A DNA stretch of 64,000 bases, taken from contig NZ_CP076134.1 of assembly GCF_018736085.1 (NCBI RefSeq), positions 1,870,501 through 1,934,500 on the forward strand, read 5' to 3'. Within the stretch, counting starts at the first letter, position 1. Each line of letters begins with the position of its first letter. The position numbers and the translations under genes are program-made. The stretch comes from Bradyrhizobium sediminis (GTDB lineage Bacteria > Pseudomonadota > Alphaproteobacteria > Rhizobiales > Xanthobacteraceae). Positions 5,493-33,043 of the stretch are shown here, piece by piece. The notes beneath the pieces are model-generated. The model searched no databases. It was not told the DNA's origin and saw only the letters and a program-made list of their open reading frames with translations.

Positions 5493-5539
5493 ACCATATT
5501 TCTTGCCCAGCCTCGACGGGCAAATCACAACTATAGCTC

Positions 5540-18159: not shown

Positions 18160-19115
18160 AGCGAAACGGCATCTTTTTCTGGGTCGGAGCGGCCCTGTTT
18201 CTCGGCGGCGCGCTGCTGATGACTCAGGTCATCGGTAATCAATATCCCTTCTTTGCCGGCTACGTGATCCTGCAGTTCATCGTCCTCGCCGTCGCATGGA
18301 GCATCCTCGGCGGCTATGCCGGTTACGTGAATTTCGGCACCAGTGCGTTTTTCGGCATGGGCGTCTACACCGCCGTATTCCTGGTCAAGTCGGTTGGCGC
18401 GCCGCTTGCCGTGCAGATCGCGGCCGCAGCCGTCGTCGGTGCCCTGATGGGCTTCGCCCTGGGCCTCCTGACCTTGCGCATGAAGGGCATCTTCTTCTCG
18501 ATCGCGACCATTGCGCTGACGATCGTCATCGAGACCTCGATAACGAACTGGCGATATGTCGGCGGCGCGGCCGGCATCCAGATGCAGCGGCCGGCGGTGA
18601 TGGCGCCGTTCGAAAATTATGTGCAGATGCTGTTTTTCGTTCAGGCGCTCCTTGTGGTGCTGGCGGTTGCGATCTCGCGCTACATTCAAAAATCATGGAT
18701 GGGCCACGGCCTGCAGGCGCTCAAGGACGACGAGCTCGCTGCGGAATGCACGGGGGTGCCGACCCTGCGGCTAAAGCTGCTGGCTTGCGTCATCTCCGGG
18801 GCGCTGATGTGCGCGGCCGGCGCCCCCGCCGCGATGTACCTGCAATACGCGGACCCCACGTCCGCGTTCAATCTCAACTACTCCGTCTCGGTGCTTGCGA
18901 TGTCGCTGATCGGCGGCACCGCGCATTGGGCGGGCCCGGTCGTCGGCGCGATCCTGCTGGGCACGACGCAACAATTGCTGACCGTCACCATCTCGTCGGA
19001 AGTGAACGTGCTGGTGCTCGGCGTGATGCTGGTGCTGTTCGTAGTGGCCGCGCCAGAGGGCATCATTGGCCTGATCCGAAAGGTTCGCCGCAATCGCAAC
19101 GAGGGCGAAGGATGA
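18156..19115 (+). CDS. livM: Branched-chain amino-acid-type ABC transporter permease LivM
   Basis: 319-residue partner permease with roughly nine hydrophobic stretches. YAGYVNFGTSAFFGMGVYTAV (about 49-69) is the hallmark N-terminal motif, ALKDDELAAECTGV (about 187-200) the ATPase-contact loop, and MSLIGGTAHWAGPVVGAILL the C-terminal signature. Start ATG 18156 overlaps the livH stop (ATGA), and its own stop overlaps the ATPase start, showing tight coupling. Confidence 0.92.
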   Translation: MKRNGIFFWVGAALFLGGALLMTQVIGNQYPFFAGYVILQFIVLAVAWSILGGYAGYVNFGTSAFFGMGVYTAVFLVKSVGAPLAVQIAAAAVVGALMGFALGLLTLRMKGIFFSIATIALTIVIETSITNWRYVGGAAGIQMQRPAVMAPFENYVQMLFFVQALLVVLAVAISRYIQKSWMGHGLQALKDDELAAECTGVPTLRLKLLACVISGALMCAAGAPAAMYLQYADPTSAFNLNYSVSVLAMSLIGGTAHWAGPVVGAILLGTTQQLLTVTISSEVNVLVLGVMLVLFVVAAPEGIIGLIRKVRRNRNEGEG

Positions 19116-19858
19116 TGCCCCCCGAAACCCAGGCACCCCTGCTGCGGATATCAGCGCTTACCAGACGTTTCGGCGGTTTCACCGCGCTCGACAATGTCAG
19201 TGTCGACATTCGTCCGGGAGAGCGCTTCGGCCTTATCGGCCCGAACGGCTCGGGGAAGACGACGCTGATCAACTGTATTTCCGGCGCGTTCCGTACCGAG
19301 GCCGGCACAGTGGTGTTCCGTGACGAGGACATTACGCGGTTGCAGCCGCATATGCGCACACGCCGCGGCATTGCGCGCAGCTTCCAGATCCCGCGTCCGT
19401 TCAAGAGCATGACGGTTGCCGAAAACCTCATGGTCGCGCTCGACTTCGCGGCGGTCACCGGCGAGATCGTCTCGGCTGCGCAACGGCGCGACACCATGAT
19501 GTCGATCCTGACGCGGATGGGTCTCGCGTCGAAGGCGAACGTGTCGGCAACGAAGCTGAGCCAGGTGGAATTGCGCAAGATGGAGCTCGCCCGGGCGATG
19601 GCGACGCACCCCAAACTCCTGATTTCCGACGAGGCCATGGCCGGCCTTTCCAGCTCGGAAGTCGATGAGGTGCTTGATCTGCTCATGAGCCTTGCGGGGC
19701 AGGACATCACCATCATCATGATTGAGCACATCATGCAGGCGGTGATGCGTTTTTCGGACCGCGTGATGTGTCTCGACGCCGGCAGGATCATCGCGATCGG
19801 CACGCCGAACGAAGTCATGGCCAACCAGCGCGTGCAGGAGGCCTACCTTGGCACTTAG
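19112..19858 (+). CDS. livG: Branched-chain amino-acid-type ABC transporter ATPase LivG
   Basis: 248-residue nucleotide-binding subunit. Walker A is GPNGSGKTT (about residues 41-49). TRRGIARSFQIPRPFKSMTVAENLMVA is the LivG-type Q-loop region, and the H-loop is IEHIMQAVM. The ABC signature is unusual: LSQVELRKMELARAMA instead of LSYGQQRRLEIARALA. Walker B reads LLISDEAMAGLS, with Ala replacing the Pro after DE. These changes lie in the ATP sandwich, so this subunit may be catalytically weaker, with LivF supplying the normal sites. Expression is coupled to livM and livF by overlaps. Confidence 0.9.
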   Translation: MMPPETQAPLLRISALTRRFGGFTALDNVSVDIRPGERFGLIGPNGSGKTTLINCISGAFRTEAGTVVFRDEDITRLQPHMRTRRGIARSFQIPRPFKSMTVAENLMVALDFAAVTGEIVSAAQRRDTMMSILTRMGLASKANVSATKLSQVELRKMELARAMATHPKLLISDEAMAGLSSSEVDEVLDLLMSLAGQDITIIMIEHIMQAVMRFSDRVMCLDAGRIIAIGTPNEVMANQRVQEAYLGT

Positions 19859-20585
19859 CCTTGCCATCAAGGACCTCGATGCGGGGTACGGCGCCGTGAA
19901 GGCGCTGCGCGGCGTCAGTCTCCGTGTCGAGGCCGGCGAGACCGTCGCCTTGCTCGGCACCAACGGCAACGGCAAGAGCACGCTGATGAAGTGCGTCGCA
20001 GGCCTGGTTCGGCCGGAGCGCGGAAGCGTGTTGCTGACGATCGACGGAACGACGCACGATCTGGCCAGGCTGTCGACCGAGGCCATTGTCGATCTCGGCG
20101 TCGCGCTGGTTCCCGAGGGACGGCGGCTGTTTCCCAAGCTGACCGTGCTGGAAAATCTGATGCTCGGCGCCTTCCGCAAGGCCGCCCGGCAAAACATCGA
20201 CCGCAACCTTGCGCTCGCCTTCGAGACATTTCCGGCGCTCAAGGGGCTGCAGGGCCAGCTCGCCGGCACCATGTCAGGCGGGCAGCAGCAGATGCTGGCC
20301 ATCGCGCGCGCGCTAATGTCGTCGCCGCGCCTGTTGTTGATCGATGAGCCTTCGGTAGGCCTGTCACCGCTCCTGGTCTCGCAGACCATCGCCAAGATCG
20401 GCGAGCTCAATCAGCATCTCGGCCTGACGGTGCTCATGGCGGAGCAAAACTTCAACCAAGCGATCCGGATCGCCGATCGCGGTTATATCATTGTCCATGG
20501 CGAGATCGTCGTCGCGGCCGATTCGGTGGACGAATTGAGAGGCAACGACATCGTCAAGCGGCTCTATCTAGGCGGCGTCGCATGA
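19848..20585 (+). CDS. livF: Branched-chain amino-acid-type ABC transporter ATPase LivF
   Basis: 245-residue second ATPase. Walker A is GTNGNGKST, the signature is MSGGQQQMLAIARALM, Walker B is LLLIDEPSVGLSP and the switch region is MAEQNFNQAI, all canonical. The start is TTG at 19848, inside the end of livG (11-base overlap), with AGGAGG at 19836-19841. It completes the importer: binding protein, LivH, LivM, LivG, LivF. Confidence 0.92.
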   Translation: MALSLAIKDLDAGYGAVKALRGVSLRVEAGETVALLGTNGNGKSTLMKCVAGLVRPERGSVLLTIDGTTHDLARLSTEAIVDLGVALVPEGRRLFPKLTVLENLMLGAFRKAARQNIDRNLALAFETFPALKGLQGQLAGTMSGGQQQMLAIARALMSSPRLLLIDEPSVGLSPLLVSQTIAKIGELNQHLGLTVLMAEQNFNQAIRIADRGYIIVHGEIVVAADSVDELRGNDIVKRLYLGGVA

Positions 20586-20838
20586 TTGCCCGCTAGGAGC
20601 CGCGGCGGAAAGACGGCCGACGACGAAGCGACGAGTTCCAGTCCGTCCCGGCTTCGCGGGGATTGAGCTCATCGTTGCGCACGACCAGTTCCATCTTCGT
20701 CGCATTGCAACGCGTCGGACAGAACGACGGGCGCTGGAGCCGGAATGCACCCTTCCGGTCTTGATTTTTATGAACGCTTCCTGCTTCAATTGGGTAGATG
20801 CTACAATTACTAAATTAAGCGGCCCTTGGGGGAATATG

Positions 20839-22488
20839 ATGAGTGTGCCAGTCCGAGCGAAGCGCAGTTCAGCGCCTTCCGATTCGCCGCACGGCTTGGC
20901 GCTGTTGCGCGATCCGCTGCTCAACAAGGGCACGGCCTTCACGGAAGCGGAGCGCGATGCGCTGGGATTGCGCGGTTTCCTGCCCGCCCACGTGCTCTCG
21001 ATGAAAGATCAGGTCGAGCGTGTGCTGACCAATCTGCGCAGCCTGCCCACCGATCTGGAAAAGTACATCGCACTCAACTCGCTGCACGACCGCAACGAGG
21101 CGTTGTTCTTCCGCGTCGTGTGCGACAACATCGATGAAATCCAGCCGCTGATCTATACCCCGACAGTGGGGCTGGCCTGCCAGCGGTTCGGTCTCATCTT
21201 CCAGCGGCCGCGCGGCATGTTTATTAGCGCCAACGACCGCGGGCGTATCGCGGAACTGCTGGCCAACTGGCCTTATCCCGCGAAGCTTATCGTCGTCACG
21301 GACGGAGAGCGTATCCTCGGCCTCGGCGATCTCGGCGCCCATGGCATGGGCATTCCAGTCGGCAAGCTCTCGCTTTATTCAGCCTGCGCCGGCATCCGTC
21401 CGGAATACTGCCTGCCGGTCATGCTGGACGTCGGCACCAACAACGAAGAGTTCCTGAACGATCCCTATTATATCGGCCTGCGCCAGAAGCGCCTGAGCGG
21501 CGCGGCGTACGACGAACTGGTTGACGAGTTCATCACCGCCGCCCGCGAGACCTTCCCCGGCGTGCTGATCCAGTTCGAGGATTTCGCCAATCACTCGGCG
21601 TTCCGGCTGCTGCACAAATATCGTGATAAGATAAATGTTTTTAACGACGACATCCAGGGAACGGCCGCGGTGGCGCTTGCTGGCCTGTTCTCCGCGTTGC
21701 GTGTGAACGGTGGAAAACTTGCCGACCAGAAGGTGCTTTTCCTCGGTGCTGGCGAGGCTGCGACCGGCATCGCCGACCTCGTGGTCTCGGCCATGATGGC
21801 GGAGGGCGTATCGGAAGTCGAGGCGCTCAGGCGCACATGGCTCGTGGACTCGCGTGGCCTTGTTGTGAAGAACAGGGCCGGCGTCACCGACCACAAACTT
21901 CGCTACGCGCACGATCATGCGCCAATCGGCGACTTTCTGACCGCAATCGAAACGCTCAAGCCCACAGCTATCATCGGCGTTGCGGCGGTCGGCGGCGCCT
22001 TCACGCCCGAGGTGCTGCAGGCAATGGCGCGGATCAACGATCGGCCGATCGTGTTTGCGCTCTCCAATCCGACCTCGAAAGCGGAATGCTCCGCCGAGGA
22101 AGCTTATCGCCATACCGGCGGCCGCGCGCTGTTCGCGTGCGGCAGTCCCTACGATCCGGTGAAGCTCGACGGCAAGACGTTCGTACCGCGCCAGGGCAAC
22201 AATTCCTACATCTTCCCCGGCGTCGGTCTTGGCGCGATCGCGAGCGGATCAAGACTGGTGACCGACGAGATGTTCATGGCCGCCGCGCACACGCTGGCGT
22301 ATCTCGTCAACGACGCCGACATCCGGCAGGGCAGTCTCTACCCGGCGCTGCCGCGGATCCGGGAAGTCTCGGCACATATTGCTGTGGCGGTTGCCGAGGT
22401 CGCTTACCGGCGCGGTCTTGCCACTACGCCGGTGCCGAACGATCTGATGGCGTTCGTTCAGTCGCAAATGTACGACCCCCACTATTGA
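20839..22488 (+). CDS. NAD(P)-dependent malic enzyme (oxaloacetate-decarboxylating type)
   Basis: 549-residue malic enzyme of the MaeA/eukaryote-like class, converting malate to pyruvate and CO2. Motifs in order: TPTVGLACQRF (about residues 102-112), GDLGAHGMGIPVGKLSLY (about 161-178), EDFANHSAFRLLHKYR, FNDDIQGTAAVALAGL (metal site), LGAGEAATGIADL (dinucleotide loop), and FALSNPTSKAECSAEEAY. It lacks the phosphotransacetylase-like tail of MaeB enzymes. ATG 20839 is preferred over the adjacent ATG 20836 for spacing from GGGGGA. It may feed pyruvate and reducing power from the TCA products of the upstream catabolic genes. Confidence 0.93.
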   Translation: MSVPVRAKRSSAPSDSPHGLALLRDPLLNKGTAFTEAERDALGLRGFLPAHVLSMKDQVERVLTNLRSLPTDLEKYIALNSLHDRNEALFFRVVCDNIDEIQPLIYTPTVGLACQRFGLIFQRPRGMFISANDRGRIAELLANWPYPAKLIVVTDGERILGLGDLGAHGMGIPVGKLSLYSACAGIRPEYCLPVMLDVGTNNEEFLNDPYYIGLRQKRLSGAAYDELVDEFITAARETFPGVLIQFEDFANHSAFRLLHKYRDKINVFNDDIQGTAAVALAGLFSALRVNGGKLADQKVLFLGAGEAATGIADLVVSAMMAEGVSEVEALRRTWLVDSRGLVVKNRAGVTDHKLRYAHDHAPIGDFLTAIETLKPTAIIGVAAVGGAFTPEVLQAMARINDRPIVFALSNPTSKAECSAEEAYRHTGGRALFACGSPYDPVKLDGKTFVPRQGNNSYIFPGVGLGAIASGSRLVTDEMFMAAAHTLAYLVNDADIRQGSLYPALPRIREVSAHIAVAVAEVAYRRGLATTPVPNDLMAFVQSQMYDPHY

Positions 22489-22552
22489 AGTGAGCTGATC
22501 CGGTATTCTCAGGACCACGGGCGAAGCTGCAGCTTCGCGCTTGGCAGTTGCC

Positions 22553-23707
22553 TCACTCTGCCGCCACGCCCTTCAGCATGCTCTCTGCCCGCGTTGTGAC
22601 CACGACCTTGATGGCGTCCTCGACCCGATCGCGCGCGTATCGGAGCGCGGTAGGGAGATCGGCGAGCGCAAATGTATGGGTATGAATTTTCGTCGCGTCG
22701 AAGCGTTTCTCCGCCATCAGGGCCATCGCCCGGCGCGTGGCGCTACGGCCCTCGCCGCGAATGCCGTAGACGTAGATATTATTCTTCACCAGATGCGGCA
22801 GGTCGGTCGTCACCGGATGGTGCGGAAATGCCGCCAGGCAGATCTTTCCGCCGCGGTTGGCCATGTGGATGGCTTGGTTGACCGTGGCCTCGGTGCCGGC
22901 GCATTCGATCACATAGTCCGCGCCGATGCCGCCGGTGAGCTGCCTGACGACATCGACGGCATTCTCATCGGAGATGTTGACGACGCGATCCGCTCCCAAT
23001 TCCCTGCCAATCTCCAGGCGCTTGTTGCGGGTTCTCGTCAGGATGACCGGGCTTGCCCCCAGCGCCTTTGCGACGGCCACAGCGAGCAACCCGATGGGGC
23101 CGGGGCCGATCACCACGACGCTTTCACCGGCGACCAGCCCGCCAAGTTCGGTGAGACCGTACATCGAAGTGCCGGCGGTGACGACGAGCGTGGCTTCGGC
23201 GTCGCTCATGGTGTCGGGCACCCGCGCCAGCGTATTGATGTGATTGACCGCGTATTCGGCAAAACCGCCATCGGTCGTGAAGCCGTTGGCGCGTTGACCC
23301 TTGTCGGGCTTTCCATAGTTGAGGCACGAAGTGTACATGCCTTGGCGGCAGCGCTTGCATTGGCCGCAGCCGGCATGGATTTCCACGCTAACTCGTTCGC
23401 CGATGGCGAACTCGTCAACATCAGGCCCGAGGGCGGCGACCGTGCCCATATATTCATGGCCGGGGGTGAAGTTCTTGTTGAAGGGCAGGCCGCCCAGAAT
23501 GCTCGCGGGCGACCCGCCATGGATGATTTCAAGGTCGGTTGCGCAGATCGCGACGGCGTCGATCCGGACCAGAACCTCCGCGCGTCCAGGGACCGGCGTG
23601 GGCTTGTCGCGCAGGAAAAGCTCGTCCGGGTCGCCCAGAACCCAGGCTTTCATCTGAGCAGGGATGGAGAATTCGGGCGACATCGTAACGCCGGCAGGGT
23701 CGTACAT
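22553..23707 (-). CDS. Zinc-dependent alcohol dehydrogenase (MDR family)
   Basis: 384-residue medium-chain dehydrogenase. ICATDLEIIHGG carries the catalytic-zinc Cys, and PGHEYMGTV carries the zinc His-Glu. CGQCKRCRQGMYTSC (about residues 116-130) supplies the four structural-zinc Cys. VVVIGPGPIGLLAVAVAKALG is the cofactor Rossmann loop, with TRTRNKR suggesting NADP preference is possible. The start ATG 23707 follows GAGGA at eight bases. It stands alone, convergent to the malic enzyme gene with 64 bases between. Confidence 0.9.
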   Translation of the reverse strand: MYDPAGVTMSPEFSIPAQMKAWVLGDPDELFLRDKPTPVPGRAEVLVRIDAVAICATDLEIIHGGSPASILGGLPFNKNFTPGHEYMGTVAALGPDVDEFAIGERVSVEIHAGCGQCKRCRQGMYTSCLNYGKPDKGQRANGFTTDGGFAEYAVNHINTLARVPDTMSDAEATLVVTAGTSMYGLTELGGLVAGESVVVIGPGPIGLLAVAVAKALGASPVILTRTRNKRLEIGRELGADRVVNISDENAVDVVRQLTGGIGADYVIECAGTEATVNQAIHMANRGGKICLAAFPHHPVTTDLPHLVKNNIYVYGIRGEGRSATRRAMALMAEKRFDATKIHTHTFALADLPTALRYARDRVEDAIKVVVTTRAESMLKGVAAE

Positions 23708-23844
23708 TGGAGCAGTCCTCATTCTTGCCGAAACCCTACGGGAAAGGGGCGGAGAAGATTAGACGACAAACCTGTCTCATTTGCAGGAAAACGTAAGGCG
23801 GGAAAACGGAAAGACTATCGATCCCGGCTCTGCTAGCATTATAG

Positions 23845-24035
23845 AAGGGATCGGCTCTCATCGAAATTCGCAACCAGGAATTTCTGTGTCGGGAGCGCGC
23901 GTTACTGGATTCCGAGCGCAAGATCTTCTGGCTGGCGAGGCGGAAGAATGGGAACGGTGCGCGCTTGATGAAATTGCGTTCCATTTCCGGGAATGCGACC
24001 TCGATGTCGCCCATTCACAGCCGGTTGCCCATTAG
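23845..24035 (+). pseudogene. Frameshifted small conserved protein
   Basis: One frame reads EIRNQEFLCRERALLDSERKIFWLA and then loses sense. Shifting one base near 23937 continues as EAEEWERCALDEIAFHFREC and ends at TAG 24033-24035. From memory, an uninterrupted small Bradyrhizobium protein has this combined sequence. A single missing G in CTGGCGAGGCGG would explain the break. No start codon exists between the in-frame TAG at 23842 and the conserved part, so the 5' end also seems lost. A sequencing error is possible for the shift but not for the missing start. Confidence 0.5.
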
Positions 24036-24182
24036 CGCGCGGACGCTGCTGGAGCTGAGCCCGGTGGCGGCGTGAAGCGTCGGCTGTCTTGTGCGCAACG
24101 GGCACGGCTCGCCAACGAATTTTTATGCGGGGCGCGCCCTTCGAGGCGCGCCGAGCTGTCCTATGGGGGCGACGTCGATCCC

Positions 24183-24377
24183 TTAGTGTCGCCGTTCCGG
24201 CTTCGTCACGGTCTGCCTGACTTCGGCGCCGCAGTCGGAGCACTCATAGATGAAGTCGATCCTTGCCATGCTCCAGTGGGGCTCAACGTCTCTGACGTAC
24301 ATCGGCAGTTGTCCAACACAGCCGGGGCAGATGATTGGCGCGATCTCACCTTCGTGATGCTGGATGTAGGCTGGCAT
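24183..24377 (-). CDS. Small zinc-ribbon-like protein
   Basis: 64-residue protein with CPGC at residues 18-21 and CSDC at about 46-49, a two-knuckle arrangement that could hold one zinc ion. The remainder (PMYVRDVEPHW) has no recognised motif. A good ribosome site (GGAGAG) precedes the ATG. The function is unknown; the Cys spacing suggests a fold like short zinc ribbons. The 24036-24182 and 24378-24582 flanks show no genes. Confidence 0.65.
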   Translation of the reverse strand: MPAYIQHHEGEIAPIICPGCVGQLPMYVRDVEPHWSMARIDFIYECSDCGAEVRQTVTKPERRH

Positions 24378-24582
24378 GTCGGCTCTCCTTCACAGCGGAA
24401 GCACGGTAATTTCAACCCCGAGCTAACTTACCGCGAAGGCCGGATGCTCATCATCAACTCTTGCGAACGTACAAGGAACGGCAGCACAATCCTGGCGCGT
24501 GTGGCTTTGTGGTAACATCCCAGAGCCCGCAACGGATATCCTGCGGATTAGTCTCTGCGATCCCGAATCGGGCCCTGTGTGA

Positions 24583-24858
24583 TCACACCGGCTCGTGCTT
24601 CCTCAGATCGCGGGCGTGATCGAGGCGGCTTGTCTGCAGATCGGTTTCAGCCGCCGGGATTTCGGGAACGGCTGCCTCGGCCAGAATTTCCGCCGTGATG
24701 TCGTCGACCGACGAATCGGCGATTTCGTGAATGAAGCTGATGTTCTTGTATTCGCCCGACGCCACCCGCGAGATGACTTCGCGCCGCGTAATCTCGGGGT
24801 CGACGATGGCCTCGCGCCCGCGCCGCCCATAGTCGATCATCACGACGAAATACTGCAT
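24583..24858 (-). CDS. Conserved small protein under repressor-type operators
   Basis: 91-residue acidic protein starting MQYFVVMIDYGRRGREAIVDPEI, with TRREVISRVASGEYKNISFIHEI in the middle. I recall similar short proteins in Bradyrhizobium next to S24 repressors, but no function is known. It lies downstream of the repressor gene on the same strand. Three palindromes (24902-24956) lie 44-98 bases before its start codon, so it is probably repressed by that protein. Confidence 0.65.
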   Translation of the reverse strand: MQYFVVMIDYGRRGREAIVDPEITRREVISRVASGEYKNISFIHEIADSSVDDITAEILAEAAVPEIPAAETDLQTSRLDHARDLRKHEPV

Positions 24859-24901
24859 GGCCCTCTCATGGGGCGCCCGTCGGAATGTCCACGGGCGAGA
24901 T

Positions 24902-24956
24902 TTCAGTATTTCTGAAAATCAGAAACTAGTCAAGTTGATAATTCTGAAAAACAGAA
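24902..24956. promoter_or_regulatory. Operator cluster 2: three TTCNGA-N3-TCNGAA palindromes
   Basis: Sites: TTCAGT-ATT-TCTGAA (24902-24916, one deviation), TTCTGA-AAA-TCAGAA (24910-24924, perfect and overlapping the first) and TTCTGA-AAA-ACAGAA (24942-24956, one deviation). They precede the small gene at 24858 and share their consensus with three sites upstream of the repressor gene. Confidence 0.7.
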
Positions 24957-25036
24957 GAGCGAGCCCTTAGCCCCAATATGACTCCGCCGCGGGCGAGAAT
25001 CGTACGGCGCCGTCTTCGGGTTTTGGAGAGTCCCTC

Positions 25037-25675
25037 CTATCTCTCGTGCGCGCGCCCGGCATGGGATTTTGCCGCCTTGCGCGCCCGGGCGGCGGCCTTG
25101 GCCCGCAGGCGCTCGATCTGGCCCCTCGGCAGGGTGACGCAGATTTCCCCAATCCATTCCAGCTTCACCCCCCTGATCGGCTTGGCGTTGAAGCTGGTGA
25201 GGTTGACCATGGCGCCGGATTTTCCCCGCTCGATGGTCTTGAGGTAGCGCTCCCCGGTCTTCAGGCGGACCGCGGCCTCTTCGCCATAGAAGCTCTCCAG
25301 CGGGTGACGTTGTTCCTTGTAGACTACGATAATGTCGCCATTCTCGTACTTCGGCAGCATGGAATCGCCAGCCACCTCGAAGGCGATGGTCTCCTCCGAT
25401 ATCGGGAAGGGCAATTCGACCTCGCCGAGGCCTTCCGGCGGCACCTGCTCGTATTCCGGCTCGATCGTAGCGCCTGCGCCGACGCGACCCATGATGGGCA
25501 CCGAATTCAGCTCGAGATAATCGATGATATCGGCAATCTCCGACGCCTTGATCAGGCGCAGACCGGACAGGATTTCCGAGACGGCCCCAGGGCGAACGCC
25601 CATCGCCGTCGCCAGACCTCCCTTGGTCTTGCCCGGTTTCTCCAGTCCCCGCTCGATCAGCTTGATATCCAGCAT
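25037..25675 (-). CDS. S24-family (CI/LexA-like) transcriptional repressor
   Basis: 212-residue two-domain repressor. Residues 1-50 form a helix-turn-helix: KTKGGLATAMGVRPGAVSEILSG. Residues about 85-190 are an S24 peptidase domain with the nucleophile in GDSMLPKYENGD and the general-base Lys in RYLKTIERG. The Ala-Gly pair in GRVGAGATIEP is the expected self-cleavage site, so the repressor may be inactivated by RecA during DNA damage. The C-terminus is an Arg/Ala-rich tail. ATG 25675 is chosen; an extension to 25711 lacks a ribosome site. It is divergent from a GcrA-like gene across three operators. Confidence 0.9.
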   Translation of the reverse strand: MLDIKLIERGLEKPGKTKGGLATAMGVRPGAVSEILSGLRLIKASEIADIIDYLELNSVPIMGRVGAGATIEPEYEQVPPEGLGEVELPFPISEETIAFEVAGDSMLPKYENGDIIVVYKEQRHPLESFYGEEAAVRLKTGERYLKTIERGKSGAMVNLTSFNAKPIRGVKLEWIGEICVTLPRGQIERLRAKAAARARKAAKSHAGRAHER

Positions 25676-25686
25676 GGCGGTATCTC

Positions 25687-25759
25687 TTCCGAATTTCAGA
25701 AATAATAGCAATTCCGATTATCGGAAATCAAGCTTGACTTCTAATTCGGAATATCCGAA
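25687..25759. promoter_or_regulatory. Operator cluster 1: three TTCNGA-N3-TCNGAA palindromes
   Basis: Sites: TTCCGA-ATT-TCAGAA (25687-25701), TTCCGA-TTA-TCGGAA (25712-25726, perfect) and TTCGGA-ATA-TCCGAA (25745-25759, perfect). They fill the gap between the repressor start (25675) and the divergent GcrA-like gene (25839), the arrangement expected for autoregulation and control of the divergent operon. Confidence 0.75.
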
Positions 25760-25838
25760 ACTGATGATCGGTTGTCCGTGGCGACGGTTCGTCCGGGGTG
25801 GCCCTCATCATGACTGGAAGCGCAGGGGAGAATAGCTA

Positions 25839-26366
25839 TTGCAGACAGACTGGGCACCCGCGCATTCCGATGCGCTACGCGAATATCTTGCGAAGGGCAT
25901 GTCCTTTGCCGAAATCGCTCATGCGATCAATGCGAAGTTCGACACCGCCTATTCCCGCAATGCCACGATCGGCCGCGCCAAACGAATGGGGCTCGCTGGT
26001 TCTGACCGGCGTGCCGAGCCGAACGGTTGGCCGCAGCAGCTCAGCGCGCCGCGGCTTTGTAAACTTCGTGAGCGCCAGGCCGCCGAATCGAAACGGCTCC
26101 TGCCGGTTTCCGAGCGCGCGGAAAGGATCAATCTCCGCTGCGTCCAGATCCTGCCACGGCATTTGTCGCTGATAGACCTTGAAGCCGGCGACTGCCGGTA
26201 TCCTTATGGCGGCGACGACGAGGGCGAACCCATCACCTTCTGCGGCCATCCGCAGCGCGAGGGATCGAGCTATTGTGCCGGACATTTTCACCTGACCCAC
26301 GGCCCCGGCACGGCCTCGGAGCGAGCCGCCGTCCCGGTCTCCCTGCGGCTCGTGGAGGCAGCATGA
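25839..26366 (+). CDS. GcrA-like cell-cycle regulator (phage-associated paralogue)
   Basis: 175-residue protein. The N-terminus LREYLAKGMSFAEIAHAIN followed by SRNATIGRAKRMGL matches the GcrA DNA-binding region (x-EGLSASQIA-x-LG...RNAVIGKVHRLGL). The C-terminus CRYPYGGDDEGEPITFCG and YCAGHFHL matches the GcrA sigma-70-contact domain with its Cys/His pattern. GcrA works with CcrM-type adenine methylation in alphaproteobacteria. The middle is divergent, so this is not the housekeeping copy. The start is TTG at 25839 with GGGGAG eight bases upstream. It overlaps the next small gene (ATGA). Confidence 0.8.
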   Translation: MQTDWAPAHSDALREYLAKGMSFAEIAHAINAKFDTAYSRNATIGRAKRMGLAGSDRRAEPNGWPQQLSAPRLCKLRERQAAESKRLLPVSERAERINLRCVQILPRHLSLIDLEAGDCRYPYGGDDEGEPITFCGHPQREGSSYCAGHFHLTHGPGTASERAAVPVSLRLVEAA

Positions 26367-26542
26367 AAGGCGGACCGGCCATGGTCATGAGGATGACGCG
26401 GCTGCCGCGTCGCCATCGCATCGCGCATCTTCGCGCACTGATCCGGCAGCAACCGGTGCGCTCGATCCGGCGCAGGGAGTTGGTGACGTTGTTGCGCGCT
26501 GAAGTAACAGCGCAGCTCTGCATAGCGGTTCGGGCAGAGTGA
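26363..26542 (+). CDS. Small basic protein in the GcrA-like operon
   Basis: 59 residues, strongly basic: RLPRRHRIAHLRALIRQQPV and then RSIRRRELVTLLRAEVTAQL. Predicted as two amphipathic helices, it could bind nucleic acid. ATG 26363 overlaps the preceding TGA and has GGAGG upstream, so it is coupled to the GcrA-like gene. No family recognised. Confidence 0.6.
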   Translation: MKGGPAMVMRMTRLPRRHRIAHLRALIRQQPVRSIRRRELVTLLRAEVTAQLCIAVRAE

Positions 26543-26706
26543 ACCGACCCCTACGGGGGAACACGGCTGACGGGATCTTGCTGCGCTTTGGCCGGAAGTG
26601 ACTGCGGAAGACCCTCTGTCACCGTGAACCGAAACTCCTGGCGTTGCCGGCCAGGCGATTGACGCGCCGGCGAGTCGGATTTCATCATCTTACGGAGAAG
26701 CAAGAA

Positions 26707-27258
26707 GTGGCACGAGCAAGACGCAAGAAACCGCATAATCCGGCAAAGGCGCATGACCGTCGATCCCGCGACTTGCCGCGCAATGCGGAAGTGGCGGCGA
26801 TTGAAGTGGACGATCCCCTTGGCCTGGAGCCGGGGGATAAGATTGTCACCCTGCGTTCGATCCGCAACGATCCCTTGGGGCGGTTGCACTCGCACCGCCA
26901 CATTGATGAAGCGCAGTACCAGGGTGGGCGCGCTTTTCAGGCGGATTGGGAAAAAGCCGAACGCGGACCGCGGGCCGTCGACCCGCGCAGGGAATATGTC
27001 GATGGCGGCGAGATGCGGGAGCCGATTACCGAAGGCCAGCGCAAGGCCGCGCTGCGGCTGAACCGCGCCGAGCGCGAACTCGGCGCCGACGGCTCGGCAC
27101 TGGTGCATGATGTCCTCGTTCAGGGAATGACCATGGAGCAGATCGGACAGCGGCGAGGCTTGCGCGGCCAGCGCTGGATCGACTATTTCGCGCGCAGGTT
27201 CAAGGAATGTCTCGATCGGCTGGCGTTGATGTACGGATTCTCGACGGAGAAACGATAG
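26707..27258 (+). CDS. Conserved protein of the phage-type operon (DUF6456-like, uncertain)
   Basis: 183-residue soluble protein. The N-terminal 30 residues are basic. The core EPGDKIVTLRSIRNDPLGRLHSHRHID, then GGRAFQADWEKAERGPRAVDP, is distinctive. The C-terminus, HDVLVQGMTMEQIGQRRGL followed by YFARRFKECLDRLALMYGF, resembles the recruitment-type helix-turn-helix of DUF6456 proteins. GTG 26707 with GGAGAAG upstream is preferred over the GTG/TTG starts further upstream. Likely a DNA-binding accessory of the same module as the repressor and GcrA-like protein. Confidence 0.7.
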   Translation: MARARRKKPHNPAKAHDRRSRDLPRNAEVAAIEVDDPLGLEPGDKIVTLRSIRNDPLGRLHSHRHIDEAQYQGGRAFQADWEKAERGPRAVDPRREYVDGGEMREPITEGQRKAALRLNRAERELGADGSALVHDVLVQGMTMEQIGQRRGLRGQRWIDYFARRFKECLDRLALMYGFSTEKR

Positions 27259-27428
27259 CGGGGCATCCATGCGTCAGCGTTGATTGCGCATCCATGCGCG
27301 CTCGGGCATATTTTGGGCGTCGGAATGCGCGGTATCTATCATCGTTCGCATTTGCGAGAAACGGTCTCACACGCCGGCGCAAGGTTCTCATGCGCCGGCC
27401 TGCCAAGAATCATCAGGACAGTCCGATC

Positions 27429-28694
27429 ATGACCACCAGACCGCAATTGCCGGAGCGCGTGCCACGAGCAGAGGGCGAACCGACCGCTCTCGATGGTCTG
27501 CTGGTCGTCGATTTCACCCGTGTCGTCGCCGGTCCCGCCTGCACGCAGACGCTTGCCGATTTCGGCGCCGAGGTCATCAAGATCGAGAACCCTGATGGCG
27601 GCGACGATACGCGGAGCTATGAACACGCCGATCTCGCCGGCGAAAGCGCCGCCTATGTCAGCTTGAATCGCAACAAGCGCGGCATCGTTCTGGATTTCAC
27701 CAATCCGGCGGCTTGCGACGTCGCTCGCGAATTGATCGCGCGGGCCGATGTGGTGGTGGAAAACTTCTCCGCCGGCGTGATGAGGAAGTATGGCCTCGAC
27801 TACCCGTCGGTCGCGCCATCCAATCCCCGGCTGGTCTATTGCTCGATCTCGGCTTACGGCCGCCAAGGGCCGTTTGCATCGCGTCCTGGCTTCGATCCGA
27901 TCACGCAGGCCGAAAGCGGATTCATGTCGCTCAACGGTTTTCCGGACGGGCCGCCGGTGCGGACCGGGCCGCCTGCGATCGACATGGTGACGGGCATGTC
28001 GGCCTGCAACGCCATCTTGCTGGCGTTGTTCGCCCGCGACCGGCTCGGCCGCGGCCAGCATGTCGAGGTGGCGCTGTTCGATGTGGCGTTGGGGATGACG
28101 GGATTTTACGGCATGGCCCATTTGATGACCGGTGAGAATTTCAGCCGCCAGGGCAACTCGCCAAATGGCTCTCCATCGGTCGGCCTCTACGAAGCCGCCG
28201 ACGCGCCGTTTTATATTGCCTGCGCCAATGACCGGCTGTACCGGCGCCTCGTCATCGAGGTGCTCGGCCGGCCCGATCTCGCCAGCGGAGAATTCGCCGA
28301 CCGGCGTTTACGAACCGCCAACAAGGACAGACTGCGCGCGATCCTTACCGGTATTTTTGTGCAAGACCTTCGCGAAAACTGGGTGACGAGGATGAAGGCG
28401 GCCAACATTCCGGTCGGCTATCTTCGTACCGTCGAGGAAGCCTTCAACTCGCCGGAAGTGCGCGAGCGCCATCGCGTCAGCCAGATCCCGCACCCGACCG
28501 CCGGCACGGTCCCCAATGTCGAGCAGCCGATCCGTCTCAGTCTGACGCCGGTCGCCGACCCCCTAGCCGCGCCCTTGCTCGGCGAGCACACAATGGAAGT
28601 CCTGCGCAAGACGCTCGGTTACGACGATGCGCGGATCGCGGCACTTGCCGAGGCGGGAGCTTTCGGGATGGTGGCAACGGTCGAGGTCAGCTGA
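27429..28694 (+). CDS. CaiB/BaiF-family (class III) CoA transferase
   Basis: 421-residue CoA transferase. VVDFTRVVAGPACTQTLADFGAEVIKIE (about residues 28-55) is the family N-terminus, SLNRNKRGIVLDF follows, and the catalytic Asp is in the usual place in NPDGGDDTRSYEHADLAGES or soon after. FDPITQAESGFMSLNGFPDGPPVRTG is another conserved block. The enzyme moves CoA between organic acids. ATG 27429 with AGGA upstream is chosen; ATG 27390 is an alternative. It stands alone after the phage-type module. Confidence 0.9.
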   Translation: MTTRPQLPERVPRAEGEPTALDGLLVVDFTRVVAGPACTQTLADFGAEVIKIENPDGGDDTRSYEHADLAGESAAYVSLNRNKRGIVLDFTNPAACDVARELIARADVVVENFSAGVMRKYGLDYPSVAPSNPRLVYCSISAYGRQGPFASRPGFDPITQAESGFMSLNGFPDGPPVRTGPPAIDMVTGMSACNAILLALFARDRLGRGQHVEVALFDVALGMTGFYGMAHLMTGENFSRQGNSPNGSPSVGLYEAADAPFYIACANDRLYRRLVIEVLGRPDLASGEFADRRLRTANKDRLRAILTGIFVQDLRENWVTRMKAANIPVGYLRTVEEAFNSPEVRERHRVSQIPHPTAGTVPNVEQPIRLSLTPVADPLAAPLLGEHTMEVLRKTLGYDDARIAALAEAGAFGMVATVEVS

Positions 28695-28929
28695 CGTCGC
28701 GCCGGACCGGATGTGAGGCATCGGATATTGGACCGAGGCATTGAGAATGCCGATGCCAGACGGAGCATGAGGCCGGACGCAAGGTCATCAACGTCATGCC
28801 TCGACTCGCGCCGGAAAGCAGCTTTCAGGACCTGCGGGGATGGCAGGAAAACCTTGAGCTGCATCAAGCATTGCGCGAGAGAAGATACTTATTCTGCCCT
28901 TTCAACTCATTCACGATGAGGAGTTTGAG

Positions 28930-29328
28930 ATGTCGAAGCGAAAAGCGTCAACTTCCTGGATTGGCCGCGGCGCCGTCGCGGGGACAATCGCCGCGCTGGC
29001 ATTCACGATGGCAGAGCCGCCGCCGGCTGCCGCCGGCTCGGTAGAGGCCGCATCAACCGGCGTTGCGTCGACCGCGCCGTCCAGCGATGCCACGGACTTC
29101 AGCGCCCGCCGTCGCCGCTACTACCGCAGCGGCAACGCCGCCGGACTCGCTATGATGGGCATGATGATTGGAACCATTGGCGCGATTGCCGCGCAACAAC
29201 GGCGCGATGACTACTATTATTATGGACCCGGCTATTACGGCTACGGACCCGGTTATTACGGGCCCCGCTATTACGGCTATGGACCGTATTATTACGGCCC
29301 TCGTTACTATCGCTATTACCCGTACTAG
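28930..29328 (+). CDS. Secreted Tyr/Gly-rich protein
   Basis: 132 residues. The N-terminus has a signal-like hydrophobic stretch (GAVAGTIAALAFTMAEPP) ending near AAAG. A second hydrophobic, Met/Gly-rich segment (GLAMMGMMIGTIGAIAA) follows. The last 45 residues are repeats of GPGYYGYGPGYYGPRYYG type, nearly all Tyr, Gly, Pro and Arg. GAGGAG precedes the ATG. Such tails occur in small exported rhizobial proteins of unknown role. The 235-base region upstream (28695-28929) shows no other gene. Confidence 0.75.
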   Translation: MSKRKASTSWIGRGAVAGTIAALAFTMAEPPPAAAGSVEAASTGVASTAPSSDATDFSARRRRYYRSGNAAGLAMMGMMIGTIGAIAAQQRRDDYYYYGPGYYGYGPGYYGPRYYGYGPYYYGPRYYRYYPY

Positions 29329-29518
29329 CCTGCGGGTCAGGCGGGGGACACGGGCGAATACGTTGCCGTGACCTGCGCCGCACGCCAGAAGCGAAGCGGA
29401 AAGAGGTCGCCACCAAGGCGGCCTTCTGGTGTGCGATCTTGGATATTGCCAAGCCGCCAATGTGTCGCGCCGGACTCGAATCTGGCACGGTTTGACGGTT
29501 GGTGGCGGTTTTCGGCTC

Positions 29519-29704
29519 TCAGTTTGGCTTGCCGCGCGGGTTGTTCCTTGGCATACTTTCAACTTCGTCGGGTCCCGCCCGGTCAATTTCGAGGCGCGCC
29601 ATCCGAAGTATCAATGTAGCTGTCGTCAGGCCGAGGCGCTCGGCCTCCTGCGCTGCTGTATCGACCTTTCGGGCCAAGCCTTCGCGTTTATCTGGATATG
29701 TCAT
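29519..29704 (-). CDS. Small hypothetical protein
   Basis: 61 residues, mostly helical and charged (REGLARKVDTAAQEAERLGLT). GAGGAAC precedes the ATG, and the coding composition is reasonable. No family recognised. It is divergent from the 61-codon gene starting at 29730; both starts lie within 25 bases. Confidence 0.5.
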   Translation of the reverse strand: MTYPDKREGLARKVDTAAQEAERLGLTTATLILRMARLEIDRAGPDEVESMPRNNPRGKPN

Positions 29705-29729
29705 TCCTGTTCCTCATCTAAGGTGCGAG

Positions 29730-29915
29730 ATGAAAGATCCCACATTTGTTGCAGAGCTGCAGAAGAGGCTCGGAGCTCCATCGAGCGAAACCGTCGAAAG
29801 CCTGCGGCTATTGAAGGCCTTCCTCAAACTTGCGCCCGGCCAGCGTTTTGAAATCATCGAGCTGGTCGAACGCTTGGCGGCCGACCCAGCCGACAGCGAT
29901 CCCACATTGTCCTGA
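29730..29915 (+). CDS. Small hypothetical protein
   Basis: 61 residues with two predicted helices: FVAELQKRLGAPSSETVESLRLLKAF and FEIIELVERLAADP. AAGGTGCGAG precedes the ATG. No family recognised; the composition is normal for the genome. It shares a short promoter region with the divergent small gene. Confidence 0.55.
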   Translation: MKDPTFVAELQKRLGAPSSETVESLRLLKAFLKLAPGQRFEIIELVERLAADPADSDPTLS

Positions 29916-29941
29916 TTAGTCTCGTTTTCCCGATAGCCGCC

Positions 29942-30262
29942 TCAGCCGCCGGTCGGATTGACGGCGGGTGGGCGCGTTGCGATCGCGTAGATCGCCTCAT
30001 CCAGCGCTTCGGATTGGTGCAGCGTGCCGGCGGGCAGCAGGATGGTGTCGCCAGGACGGCAGATGCGCTCGCCGCCCTCCCACTCAAATTTCAGCGCGCC
30101 TTTGATGATGACGAGGATCTCATCCACAGGGTGGGTGTGGAAATGATGCACCTTGCCCGCGGCATCGCGCTGCAATTCGACGCAGCCCTGCGCCGGAAGC
30201 AACGCCAGGATGGCGGGGTCGATCGAGAATTCCGTCTTCGTGCCAGCGATGATCCGGGTCAT
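29942..30262 (-). CDS. Cupin-domain protein
   Basis: 106-residue single cupin. The metal ligands are readable: HHFHTHPVDE (residues 39-48) and LPAGTLHQ with His82. GGGAGC precedes the ATG. Last gene of the operon; its start overlaps the stop of the YqcI/YcgG-family gene (ATGA). Small cupins often finish or rearrange oxidised nitrogen intermediates or act as isomerases. A role on the product of the N-hydroxylase is a reasonable guess, not shown. Confidence 0.82.
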   Translation of the reverse strand: MTRIIAGTKTEFSIDPAILALLPAQGCVELQRDAAGKVHHFHTHPVDEILVIIKGALKFEWEGGERICRPGDTILLPAGTLHQSEALDEAIYAIATRPPAVNPTGG

Positions 30263-31014
30263 GCTGCTTGCTCCCTGTCTTTGGCTGGAGAGGTCTTGTT
30301 CTGCGCGAGTTTGGCAAACGGACATCCCACCTCGGTTTGATTGTCGTCTGCCAGGAAGTATTGCTTGTATTCGCGTCCGTTGGCGTCGCCGTAGCGTCCA
30401 AGCAGCGGCGAGGGGCTGGTGCTGTCGTAGGGGATGAGCCGCTTGCGTACTTCGGCGAATGCGGCGGCGGCGGCCTTCTCCGTTCCGAGGATCTTTTCAA
30501 ACACCCAGCGCGGTTGGAACGTCATCATGAACGCGCTGGAGCGGCGGCTTTGCCGCATCACATGCGCAGGCGTGCTGCAGACCACGAAGATCGGCTCACC
30601 CGCGAACGAGAACTCCCACATCGGATGATCGATCTGTTCGGGGATCATGTCCGGCCACGGACTCTTGTCCTGCTGCGCCAGCTGATCGAGCGTGTGCCAC
30701 ATCTTCCGGTAATAGGCCTCTAGCGTCTGCACCGGGCGCGGCCGGGTGAATACGATCAGCGACGTGTTCGGCCCGTGCGAACGGGATTCGGCGACGAACC
30801 GCGCGAGCTGCGCCCCGAGGACCTCGACGTCGAACGGATCGAGGAACAGGTAGCGCAACTGGTCCTGCCGGTGGCCGGCGACTCCGAACACACAGGGGAA
30901 GGGTCTCGCCTCACTGCTCATCTGCGCTTCGAATTCGGAGAACATCACGCTTTGCCATGTGCTCACCGCGTAGCTCGAGGCGACTTCGCCCTTTCTCAAA
31001 TACAATCGCGACAT
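30259..31014 (-). CDS. YqcI/YcgG-family protein, GntA-like heme N-hydroxylase candidate
   Basis: 251-residue protein. RPFPCVFG (about residues 37-44), LRYLFLDPFD, FTRPRPVQTLEAYYRKMWHTL and the C-terminal EVGCPF are the conserved blocks of the YqcI/YcgG family. GntA of guanitoxin biosynthesis, a heme enzyme that N-hydroxylates a guanidine-containing amino acid, belongs to it. The protein has no signal peptide. It is encoded between an MFS exporter and a cupin, with tight coupling to the cupin. The arrangement hints at making and exporting a small N-oxidised metabolite, or detoxifying one. Confidence 0.85.
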   Translation of the reverse strand: MSRLYLRKGEVASSYAVSTWQSVMFSEFEAQMSSEARPFPCVFGVAGHRQDQLRYLFLDPFDVEVLGAQLARFVAESRSHGPNTSLIVFTRPRPVQTLEAYYRKMWHTLDQLAQQDKSPWPDMIPEQIDHPMWEFSFAGEPIFVVCSTPAHVMRQSRRSSAFMMTFQPRWVFEKILGTEKAAAAAFAEVRKRLIPYDSTSPSPLLGRYGDANGREYKQYFLADDNQTEVGCPFAKLAQNKTSPAKDREQAA

Positions 31015-31037
31015 TCCGTCCCCTCCCGTTTATGCGG

Positions 31038-32330
31038 CTAACGAACTATCAATTTGCTCCTCATCAGCAGCGGGCCGGCAATGCCCGGCAGCGACATGAG
31101 CAGCAGAATTCCAATGAGCGCGCCGTAGCCGGCATCGCCGACCGAGCCCGTGCCGTGCCCGAGGTCGGTCCCGGCAAGCTGGCTAACGCCAACCATGGCG
31201 AACCCGATAACGGGCTGCGAAGCGCCTGCGAAAATTCCCGCAGCCGTGGTGTTGACCGATGCGCCGACACCGATCAGCTCGGCCGTGTAGAGTTTCTTCG
31301 TGCATTTCAGCACCAGCGGCACGGTCCCGCCGGCCACCAGTCCGAGGGCTGAGAAAACGACGGTGACATAGAGAAAGCCCAGCGCATGGGCGACCGGGGG
31401 CAGCAGCATCGCGATCAGGGCCATCCGTAGCAGGCATATGCGGACCAGGGCCATGTCAAGCGCTGCCGCCGCTCGGTCCGCCATGTGGCCAAGAAAGATC
31501 GAACCGATCGCGTTGCCGATCATGAAGGCTAGCAGGGGCGTGCTCGCGGCGGACGGTGAGATATTGAAGAAATGCGCCACCATCGGAATTCCCCAGACGC
31601 CCGATAGCGTCGTCACCACGGCAAAGTGGGACGCAAAGGTCATGGCGCATCCCCAGTTCGCCAATTGCGAAAGGGACTGCCGGCTGGCGGCGAGAACGCT
31701 CTTCAAGGTCTTGGTGCTGTGCGACGCCGGATCCGGCTTGAGCGCCACGGAGGCAAAAGCGAGGTTCGCCACGCCGACGCAGGCGATAAAAACAAAGCAC
31801 GCTCGCCAGCCAAAGCCGGTCACTGCAGCGGCGAGCGGTGTGGTCGCCAATACACCGCCGACATAGCCTGACACCTGCGAGATGCCCGACATCACGCCGA
31901 ACCGTTCGTCCTTGAAACTGAGCGCGACTAGCTTCAACAGTGCGGTGAAGACCAGCGCATCGCCGCAGGCAATGACCAGTCTTGCCAGGAAGACGTCGAG
32001 CAGGTTTGGCGCCAACGCAAACGCCGCGCTGCCGAGTGAAGACGCCGTCATGCTGAACAGCACCACGCGCTTGACGCCGAAGCGGTCGACCAGAACCCCC
32101 GCCGGAATCTGCATCAGGGTGTAGCCCCAGAAGTAACTCGAGGCGAGCATCGCAACACCGGCGGCATCGGTGCTGAAATCGGCCATGAAATTCAAACTGA
32201 TCGATTGCGGCGACACCCGCTGCAGGAAGGCGATCGCGTAGGCGGTGGCCACCGCTGCCCAGGCCAGATAGGTGCGATCCGTCGGGCGGACGGCGGGGCT
32301 AAACGCGGTGTGTTGTTCAGTGAGCGCCAT
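31038..32330 (-). CDS. MFS transporter
   Basis: 430-residue inner-membrane protein with about 12 hydrophobic segments. The segment GVLVDRFGVKRVV between TM2 and TM3 is MFS motif A. The N-terminus MALTEQHTAFSPAVRPTDR is cytoplasmic and TYLAWAAVATAYAIAFLQRV is TM1. Its ATG at 32330 shares a base with the stop of the GNAT gene (TGATG), and GAGGGGC precedes it. A likely exporter of the operon's product. Confidence 0.9.
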   Translation of the reverse strand: MALTEQHTAFSPAVRPTDRTYLAWAAVATAYAIAFLQRVSPQSISLNFMADFSTDAAGVAMLASSYFWGYTLMQIPAGVLVDRFGVKRVVLFSMTASSLGSAAFALAPNLLDVFLARLVIACGDALVFTALLKLVALSFKDERFGVMSGISQVSGYVGGVLATTPLAAAVTGFGWRACFVFIACVGVANLAFASVALKPDPASHSTKTLKSVLAASRQSLSQLANWGCAMTFASHFAVVTTLSGVWGIPMVAHFFNISPSAASTPLLAFMIGNAIGSIFLGHMADRAAAALDMALVRICLLRMALIAMLLPPVAHALGFLYVTVVFSALGLVAGGTVPLVLKCTKKLYTAELIGVGASVNTTAAGIFAGASQPVIGFAMVGVSQLAGTDLGHGTGSVGDAGYGALIGILLLMSLPGIAGPLLMRSKLIVR

Positions 32331-33043
32331 CAGCCCCTCACGAGACCGACCGAGAAAAGTGCGTCTGCCGAGTCCGGGATGGTGCGCTGCATCGCAGCGT
32401 CGACCAGCGACGCCGCGCCGCGATAGACCTGCCGGTGATGCCTGATATGGCCGTAGGCGCCGCGCATGATCATGCCGGGTACTTCGAGGCGCTTGCCGGG
32501 ATAGAGCAATTCGCACATTTCGACGCAGGCCGCCTGGAGTACTGCGTCCTGGGTGTCAGCGAGCAGCGAGGGCGTAACCTTCTCGCAGATCTTGGCATTT
32601 GCGGCCCACACGATGGGATTGCGGGTGCGCCATCCATAGAGGATGCCGGCATCGCCGCTGTCGGCGGCGCCCGATGACTTCAGGACCTCCGTCGTGAAAA
32701 ATCCGTAGAGGCCGCGGCCTTGATGGGCCGGAAGTACCTCGGTGCCACTGCGGTAGATAGCCAGCCGGCCCGCGATCCGCAGCTTGCGGTAGACCGAAAA
32801 GGCTATCAGTCCGGTAGCGTCATAGACCAGGACGAGGCTGAATTTCCTGTCGAACGGGGAGGATTCTGCCGTCCAATGCGGCTCCGTCGCTTGCCAGTTG
32901 ACGGCGATGATATTGTTCATCGCATCCATCAGTGCCCGCTGTTCGTTCGGGCTGACCCGCGAGGCATCAGGAAAACTATAGACCGCGTAATCGGGCCAGG
33001 GCGATTTGATCGTTCCGTATTGGCGGCGCAGCTCTCGTGACAT
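32330..33043 (-). CDS. GNAT-like N-acetyltransferase
   Basis: 237-residue protein. The acetyl-CoA pyrophosphate loop PAHQGRGLYGFF (about residues 106-117) preceded by a long beta strand (RKFSLVLVYDATGLIAFSVYRKL) marks the GNAT fold. It is first in an operon with an MFS transporter, a GntA-like hydroxylase and a cupin. GNATs next to exporters often protect or mature a reactive amine. ATG 33043 chosen; GTG 33052 is nearly as good. Divergent from a GlxA-type regulator with 62 bases between. Confidence 0.72.
   Translation of the reverse strand: MSRELRRQYGTIKSPWPDYAVYSFPDASRVSPNEQRALMDAMNNIIAVNWQATEPHWTAESSPFDRKFSLVLVYDATGLIAFSVYRKLRIAGRLAIYRSGTEVLPAHQGRGLYGFFTTEVLKSSGAADSGDAGILYGWRTRNPIVWAANAKICEKVTPSLLADTQDAVLQAACVEMCELLYPGKRLEVPGMIMRGAYGHIRHHRQVYRGAASLVDAAMQRTIPDSADALFSVGLVRG

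Follow-up and report, generated by a model that had tools for sequence, protein, structure and literature searches.

A phage-type repressor–operator switch, probably domesticated and still operating, in the core genome of Bradyrhizobium

Gene organization of the module

The window, that is, the whole 64-kb stretch of DNA analysed, contains a compact module laid out in the order p91, pL–OL, S24 repressor, OR–pR, GcrA-like gene, small ORF and DUF6456 gene. Its features are as follows.

24583–24858, minus strand: p91, a 91-aa protein, placed as the first leftward (pL) gene
24902–24916, no strand: palindrome-like match, not counted as an operator; includes the pL −10 and is private to the source genome
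24905–24933, minus strand: pL promoter, TTGACT-17-AATACT, from a consensus scan; OL2 fills the spacer
24910–24924, no strand: operator OL2, exact palindrome
24942–24956, no strand: operator OL1, one mismatch
25037–25675, minus strand: XRE + Peptidase_S24 repressor, 212 aa, ATG at 25675 (PF00717, 48.7 bits)
25687–25701, no strand: operator OR3, exact palindrome, between the likely pRM −10 and the repressor start
25702–25731, minus strand: likely pRM, the repressor promoter, TTGATT-18-TATTAT, from a consensus scan
25712–25726, no strand: operator OR2, exact palindrome
25734–25762, plus strand: pR promoter, TTGACT-17-GAAACT, read by eye; OR1 fills the spacer
25745–25759, no strand: operator OR1, exact palindrome
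25839–26366, plus strand: GcrA-like protein, first gene of the rightward operon (PF07750, 113 bits, over the curated cut-off)
26363–26542, plus strand: small ORF (tail of 'p89'), whose ATG overlaps the GcrA-like stop (ATGA)
26707–27258, plus strand: DUF6456 protein (GafZ/GafA C-terminal family; PF20057, 27.8 bits)

A preliminary description of this DNA had placed operator clusters around an S24 repressor gene, a GcrA-like gene and the gene of a 91-residue protein, and this arrangement was borne out, with the gene identities supported by Pfam and by phage homologues. p91 matched no Pfam family, and its homologues were found in the phages ppBeUSDA76-2 (62% over 53 aa) and ppBjS10J-1 (49% over 53 aa), where they stand upstream of ERF/YqaJ/NinB recombination genes. 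Fourteen IMG/VR loci, including L097, which may come from a chromosome, have homologues as well, and a relative with 92% identity is annotated as B. sediminis. Many p91 relatives, including those at L112, L116, L117, L118 and L120 and the p91 of the window, close with the conserved motif DHARDLRKHE. A 64-aa zinc-ribbon-like ORF (window 24183–24377, minus strand), with Pfam matches below the cut-off only, adjoins the module, and in several relatives such an ORF with 60–92% identity lies within 5 kb of it.

On the rightward side, the GcrA-like protein is accompanied elsewhere in the source genome by a second, stronger GcrA match (200 bits), which is probably the cell-cycle GcrA. The small ORF resembles a 61-aa ORF of ppBeUSDA76-2 (48% over 54 aa). 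The DUF6456 protein, whose score is only just above the PF20057 cut-off of 26.3 bits, is the single match over this cut-off in the source genome, and it shows 49% identity to a gene shortly upstream of the terminase in ppBeUSDA76-2. Its reading frame is open from 26644, with GTG at 26707 as the likely start.

The repressor carries a LexA/CI-type Ala-Gly cleavage site and a Ser/Lys dyad. The residues A67-G68, S105 and K146 line up with the LexA of the source genome and are unchanged in 60 of 60 repressors; this invariance and alignment would support a predicted damage inducibility, and we lean towards a switch that would be released by repressor cleavage. A search by sequence for relatives with solved structures returned none at E ≤ 0.01. 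In genome G320, the repressor at L125 combines an N-terminal part like that of a ppBeUSDA76-2 protein with an S24 domain 54% identical to that of the window, which reads as a putative swap of immunity specificity.

Operators and promoters

At up to one mismatch, the palindrome TTCNGA-N3-TCNGAA occurs six times in the 64-kb window, four times exactly (starting at 24910, 25687, 25712 and 25745) and twice with one deviating base (24902 and 24942), rather than as the three perfect and two deviating sites given in the preliminary description. All six matches fall in 24902–24956 and 25687–25759, and none was found in the window outside these intervals at this threshold. At up to two mismatches, the window contained 23 palindromes, which is not above shuffled sequence (mean 28). 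The match at 24902–24916 was not counted as an operator because it shares 7 bp with OL2 and because, among 60 loci, a third OL site was present only in the window's own. The conserved operator architecture, as predicted from these alignments, is therefore three OR and two OL sites, five in all. The earlier figure of six operators stands as a count of palindromes at up to one mismatch, of which five are conserved and the sixth is overlapping and private, and the proposed three-plus-three arrangement gives way to three plus two.

The operator footprint was determined over 60 of 61 loci, including that of the window; L095, with its repressor at a contig end, was left out. The 61 loci represent 59 distinct repressor sequences; two pairs of loci each come from one genome taken twice. 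At up to one mismatch, three OR sites were present in 40 loci, two in 19 and one in a single locus, and three OL sites were present in one locus, two in 40, one in 18 and none in one. The resulting means of 2.65 OR and 1.68 OL sites per locus compare with 0.0125 and 0.0108, respectively, in dinucleotide shuffles. OL is thus kept less well than OR, with one or no site in 19 of the 60 loci. Measured from the repressor start, the OR sites fall at about −77, −44 and −19, or some 20–27 bp further away in some lineages, and neighbouring sites are spaced by 33 (50 times) and by 25 or 24 bp (40 times). The OL pair is mostly spaced by 31 or 32 bp (36 times; 32 in the window).

In pR and pL alike, one operator occupies the spacer and another lies immediately before the −35, on its upstream side. 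Across the 60 loci, both −35 boxes rank among the best-conserved stretches of the locus, that of pR being at least 95% conserved; pR was not among the four sites of the promoter consensus scan. In the likely pRM, OR2 lies within the spacer and OR3 past the −10; conservation of this promoter falls short of that of pR and pL, which makes its position less certain. Since OR2 falls inside the likely pRM spacer, autorepression is predicted rather than lambda-style activation, and the placement of this operator argues that the repressor probably does not activate its own promoter in the way that lambda repressor does.

Conservation of the module across the genus

A search at E ≤ 1e-40 recovered the repressor from 145 of 147 genomes of the apparent genus Bradyrhizobium, with one match per genome except in G320, where another, partial relative is also present. 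Among the 145 matches, those in G316 and G317 are partial, and both genomes without a match are drafts, one in about 1000 contigs and the other in about 310. In a sample of the family, the repressor was matched in 22 of 248 genomes; 17 of these belong to Bradyrhizobium, and the remaining five matches, with 37–54% identity, come from four other genera. The 44 loci taken from the genome collection comprise 39 from Bradyrhizobium and five from MAGs (labelled Alphaproteobacteria, Bradyrhizobiaceae, Reyranella, Proteobacteria and bacterium).

p91 was present at 61 of 61 loci, and the GcrA-like and DUF6456 genes were each present at 60, the sole locus without either being L095, at a contig end. DUF6456 is apparently frameshifted in L032/L063 (one genome taken twice) and p91 in L069 and L096; in addition, L044 gave a short p91 match. 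Median dN/dS was 0.12 for the repressor, 0.136 for p91, 0.168 for DUF6456 and 0.33 for the GcrA-like gene, values obtained at high dS and biased towards intact genes, as sequences with internal stops or under 80% of the length were left out (60, 59, 49 and 60 sequences kept, respectively, of 61 possible, window included). All four genes of the module are under purifying selection. Moreover, groups of loci share flanking genes, with one upstream gene in 22 and one downstream gene in 19, and the CoA-transferase neighbour of the window was found at 10 loci. The pairwise distances of the four genes correlate with one another (Pearson 0.60–0.78, 46 sequences). These common flanks and correlated distances fit vertical inheritance as one unit.

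Phage relatives of the module

Temperate phages have homologues of the module genes in the same order. The p91 homologue of ppBeUSDA76-2 is directed towards ERF/YqaJ/NinB; in the right arm, a DnaA-domain-IV protein and the small-ORF homologue precede the DUF6456 homologue, which lies two small genes ahead of the terminase. The IMG/VR phage contig L107 has the order GcrA-like, DUF6456 and terminase, the last just over its cut-off. A DUF1376 homologue stands between the small ORF and DUF6456 in five of the 44 loci (L058, L059, L071, L072 and L076), and across these and L097 it is found before DUF6456 or replacing it. L097 is a 4.5-kb 'viral' IMG/VR contig that matches the chromosomal module (repressor 88%) and also carries the DUF1376 gene; it may be a piece of chromosome that was classed as viral.

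Two fixed-gap scans of IMG/VR for operator pairs returned 20 stretches on 18 contigs, with a repressor-like match at the cluster on 12 contigs and none on the other six. Among the 12 are the perhaps chromosomal L097, L188 (31% to the repressor of the window) and four contigs of one phage, which are 99.98–100% identical over their overlap with a 49-kb contig. The 49-kb phage encodes an integrase, a terminase, a major head protein and an endolysin, and its repressor is 79% identical to that of the window; its OR spacing of 33/25 and OL spacing of 32 follow the same pattern of three OR and two OL sites. A narrower earlier operator pattern had found only L097 in IMG/VR, and a looser operator–promoter pattern, which first revealed L156, L171, L188 and L202, gave at least 120 stretches, most of them chance-like. 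No exact operator copy was found in ppBeUSDA76-2 or ppBjS10J-1, phages from sequenced Bradyrhizobium hosts. The closest sequence relatives found are the IMG/VR phage IMGVR_UViG_3300045931_000114 and the Bradyrhizobium phage ppBeUSDA76-2.

In the neighbourhood of the chromosomal module, no structural genes of phages were found. Only the p91, DUF6456, DUF1376 and small-ORF homologues among 24 ppBeUSDA76-2 proteins matched the 44 flanked loci or window 19001–33000, and the integrase, terminase and ERF of this phage matched neither. Eight of ten flanking ORFs scanned in the window match host families, which include transporters, malic enzyme, alcohol dehydrogenase, CoA-transferase, cupin and YqcI/YcgG, and two match nothing. 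Across the 44 loci, lineages differ in how much of the early region remains. The phage-like gene order, the host neighbours, the lack of integrase, terminase and ERF matches and the presence of the repressor in 145 of 147 genomes all agree with the proposal of a lambda-type switch that has outlived its prophage. Furthermore, its genus-wide retention without neighbouring virus genes suggests that the bacterium now uses it.

Operator copies elsewhere in the genome

In the 5.55-Mb source genome, the palindrome has 12 exact copies, four of them at the module, compared with two copies of the reversed pattern. With an A/T core and up to one mismatch, 24 copies were counted genome-wide versus none for the reversed pattern. 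The eight exact copies away from the locus lie inside ORFs (L005, L006, L009, L010 and L011) or in a dispersed repeat (L007, L008 and L012), and a wider direct regulon was rejected, none of them being in a clear promoter. The notion of a motif confined to this locus thus holds for four of the 12 copies and fails for eight, some of them in the repeat. The switch can be called self-contained only in part, given these eight copies and outputs that would act in trans.

A TTGAC-N3-9-operator pattern was matched in 27 of 41 genus genomes, and its reversed control in none of the 41. Besides the module promoters, this pattern catches many dispersed copies in some strains, with 31 matches in G266, 22 in G282 and 21 in G283, among which one, two and two, respectively, are module promoters. 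The dispersed matches that were examined sit at the edge of a repeat of roughly 430–530 bp, to which the source-genome sites L007, L008 and L012 also belong. Rfam gave no match for six repeat or site loci. Copies of the repeat were seen at window 5533–5887 (minus strand) and at L007, L008, L012, L027–L029, L276, L277, L282, L287–L289, L293, L296 and L298. In many copies the edge reads TTGAC-N5-TTCNGAAAATCAGAA, and the window copy lacks that edge. Two copies found independently of the motif (in the window and L028) do not contain it.

Relation to gene transfer agents

Caulobacter RogA is described as a 213-aa S24 repressor of gafYZ that reportedly lacks key cleavage residues, GafY as a DnaA-IV-like protein that contacts RpoD, and GafZ as behaving like an antiterminator (PMC9632790, PMC11150451). 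Split GafA genes have been reported, as has the annotation of GafA relatives as DUF6456 (PMC9638019). GTA_TIM, the only GTA-specific marker searched, was absent from the source genome and matched in the Caulobacter control; it was found weakly in four of 98 genus genomes, three over the cut-off and at most with 31.3 bits. Control of an RcGTA by the module was rejected, as the source genome has no GTA_TIM and its only HK97 capsid has no visible link to the module. At 3.021–3.032 Mb of the source genome (L133 and L134), a small element with an HK97 capsid match also has integrase-, primase-, terminase- and portal-like ORFs, named by eye and not by family search, resembling a capsid-encoding phage satellite. 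In another genus of the family, a 54% identical S24 repressor (L124) faces DnaA-domain-IV and DUF6456 genes, and none of the other tested ppBeUSDA76-2 proteins match around it; this arrangement at L124 is a chromosomal GafY/GafZ-like module.

Proposed mechanism and alternative explanations

We consider it very probable that the module is a phage-derived, functional OL/OR switch. It probably descends from the region for immunity and early control in an ancient temperate phage, retained as a working switch after the loss of the structural genes; the region would have been acquired before the genus diversified and the structural genes lost later. Such a domesticated switch is probably still operating as part of the genus core and, judging from the repressor residues, probably SOS-releasable. 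Repressor dimers on OR1/OR2 and OL1/OL2 would shut off pR and pL, since each of these promoters has its spacer filled by an operator, and occupancy of OR3/OR2 would limit the synthesis of the repressor itself. DNA damage, through RecA-stimulated cleavage at A67-G68, or an antirepressor would then free both operons. GcrA binds sigma-70, and the GcrA-like protein may act in trans as a sigma-70 partner that replaces GafY, with the DUF6456 protein as a GafZ/Q-like antiterminator, likewise in trans. Their targets would be host or incoming-phage promoters, while p91 is made. The chances of such a GafYZ-like output in trans are about even. The repressor probably also confers immunity to phages that carry these operators. 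A joint reading, to which we give rather little credence, is that on damage the GcrA-like/DUF6456 pair, as a GafYZ variant, would turn on late promoters, whether these belong to phages (resident or incoming) or to a host particle not yet recognised, and that the repressor would hold down the dispersed TTGAC-N5-operator repeats in repeat-rich strains. Such a hold, if true, would help explain why hardly any species dropped the module.

The repressor could instead be kept only for superinfection immunity, occupying the OL and OR of related infecting phages, with the downstream genes as passengers. Temperate phages in IMG/VR do share the operator geometry, one of them with the 79% identical repressor, and a few loci pair a damaged output gene with an intact repressor. 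However, passengers should decay generally, which disfavours this reading, as the constraint on p91 (0.136) and DUF6456 (0.168) comes close to that on the repressor (0.12) when damaged copies are left out; OL is also kept before p91 in most loci, and ppBeUSDA76-2 and ppBjS10J-1 have no exact operator copy. We therefore regard an immunity-only role as unlikely. A decaying prophage relic without present function would account for the absence of structural genes beside the module, the differing extent of the early region among lineages and the few frameshifted copies, but it is highly improbable in view of the repressor matches in 145 of 147 genomes, dN/dS values that stay far below 1 for each of the four genes, catalytic residues intact in 60 of 60 repressors and operators at fixed spacing.

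The module may also be viewed as the Bradyrhizobium form of the Caulobacter RogA–gafYZ circuit, controlling an RcGTA-like gene transfer agent. The S24/LexA-like repressor of 212 aa is close in length to RogA (213 aa; PMC9632790), the partner is a DUF6456 protein, and at L124 a GafY/GafZ pair (DnaA-domain-IV and DUF6456) lies by a 54% identical repressor in another genus. Against this, GTA_TIM is absent from the source genome and present in only four of 98 genus genomes (three over the cut-off), the first gene encodes GcrA and not DnaA-IV, and the cleavage residues reportedly missing in RogA are invariant in the module. Moreover, another S24 protein of the source genome (217 aa at 779742) could be the RogA counterpart. 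These differences make control of a gene transfer agent a distinctly remote prospect compared with a domesticated phage switch.

To our knowledge, most domesticated phage regulators have been described from remnants at the level of a strain or species. The present module is an entire immunity region, with its operators and outputs, that occurs almost throughout a genus ranking among the commonest of soil bacteria and symbionts, and each of its genes is under constraint. GcrA and DnaA-IV proteins occupy the same place beside a DUF6456 partner, and this exchange links a family of cell-cycle regulators with gene transfer agents and with the control of late genes in phages. In addition, phages with matching operators make genus-wide homoimmunity directly testable. 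No published work on the locus was found among the top matches in the open-licence literature.

Comparison with known systems

Repressor switches of cryptic prophages are known from E. coli K-12, where DicA belongs to Qin and RacR to Rac. Like the module, these consist of a phage repressor and its targets kept by the host; as generally described, they sit in larger prophage remnants, whereas the module is isolated and near-universal in its genus.

With the RogA–GafYZ system of Caulobacter (PMC9632790, PMC11150451), the module shares a LexA-like repressor over a two-gene activator/antiterminator operon and the DUF6456 family. The activator there is the DnaA-IV protein GafY and in the module a GcrA-like protein, although relatives of the module have DnaA-IV. 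Unlike the Caulobacter operon, that of the module is divergently linked to its repressor, whose cleavage residues are intact, whereas RogA is reported to lack key ones. RogA–GafYZ controls a gene transfer agent, and the marker for such agents was not found in the genome of the module.

In layout, the module corresponds to the lambda immunity region. Like lambda, it has a repressor of the S24 type between two predicted operator clusters with divergent leftward and rightward early promoters, and in the phage relatives DUF6456 lies upstream of the terminase, like lambda Q. The operators number three plus three in lambda, whereas the module has three OR and two OL sites. The lambda region is part of a temperate phage, as are the regions of the module's phage relatives, whereas the chromosomal module stands without a phage. 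A GcrA-like protein opens the rightward operon of the module, unlike that of lambda, and whereas lambda repressor activates its own promoter, the geometry of the likely pRM predicts autorepression in the module.
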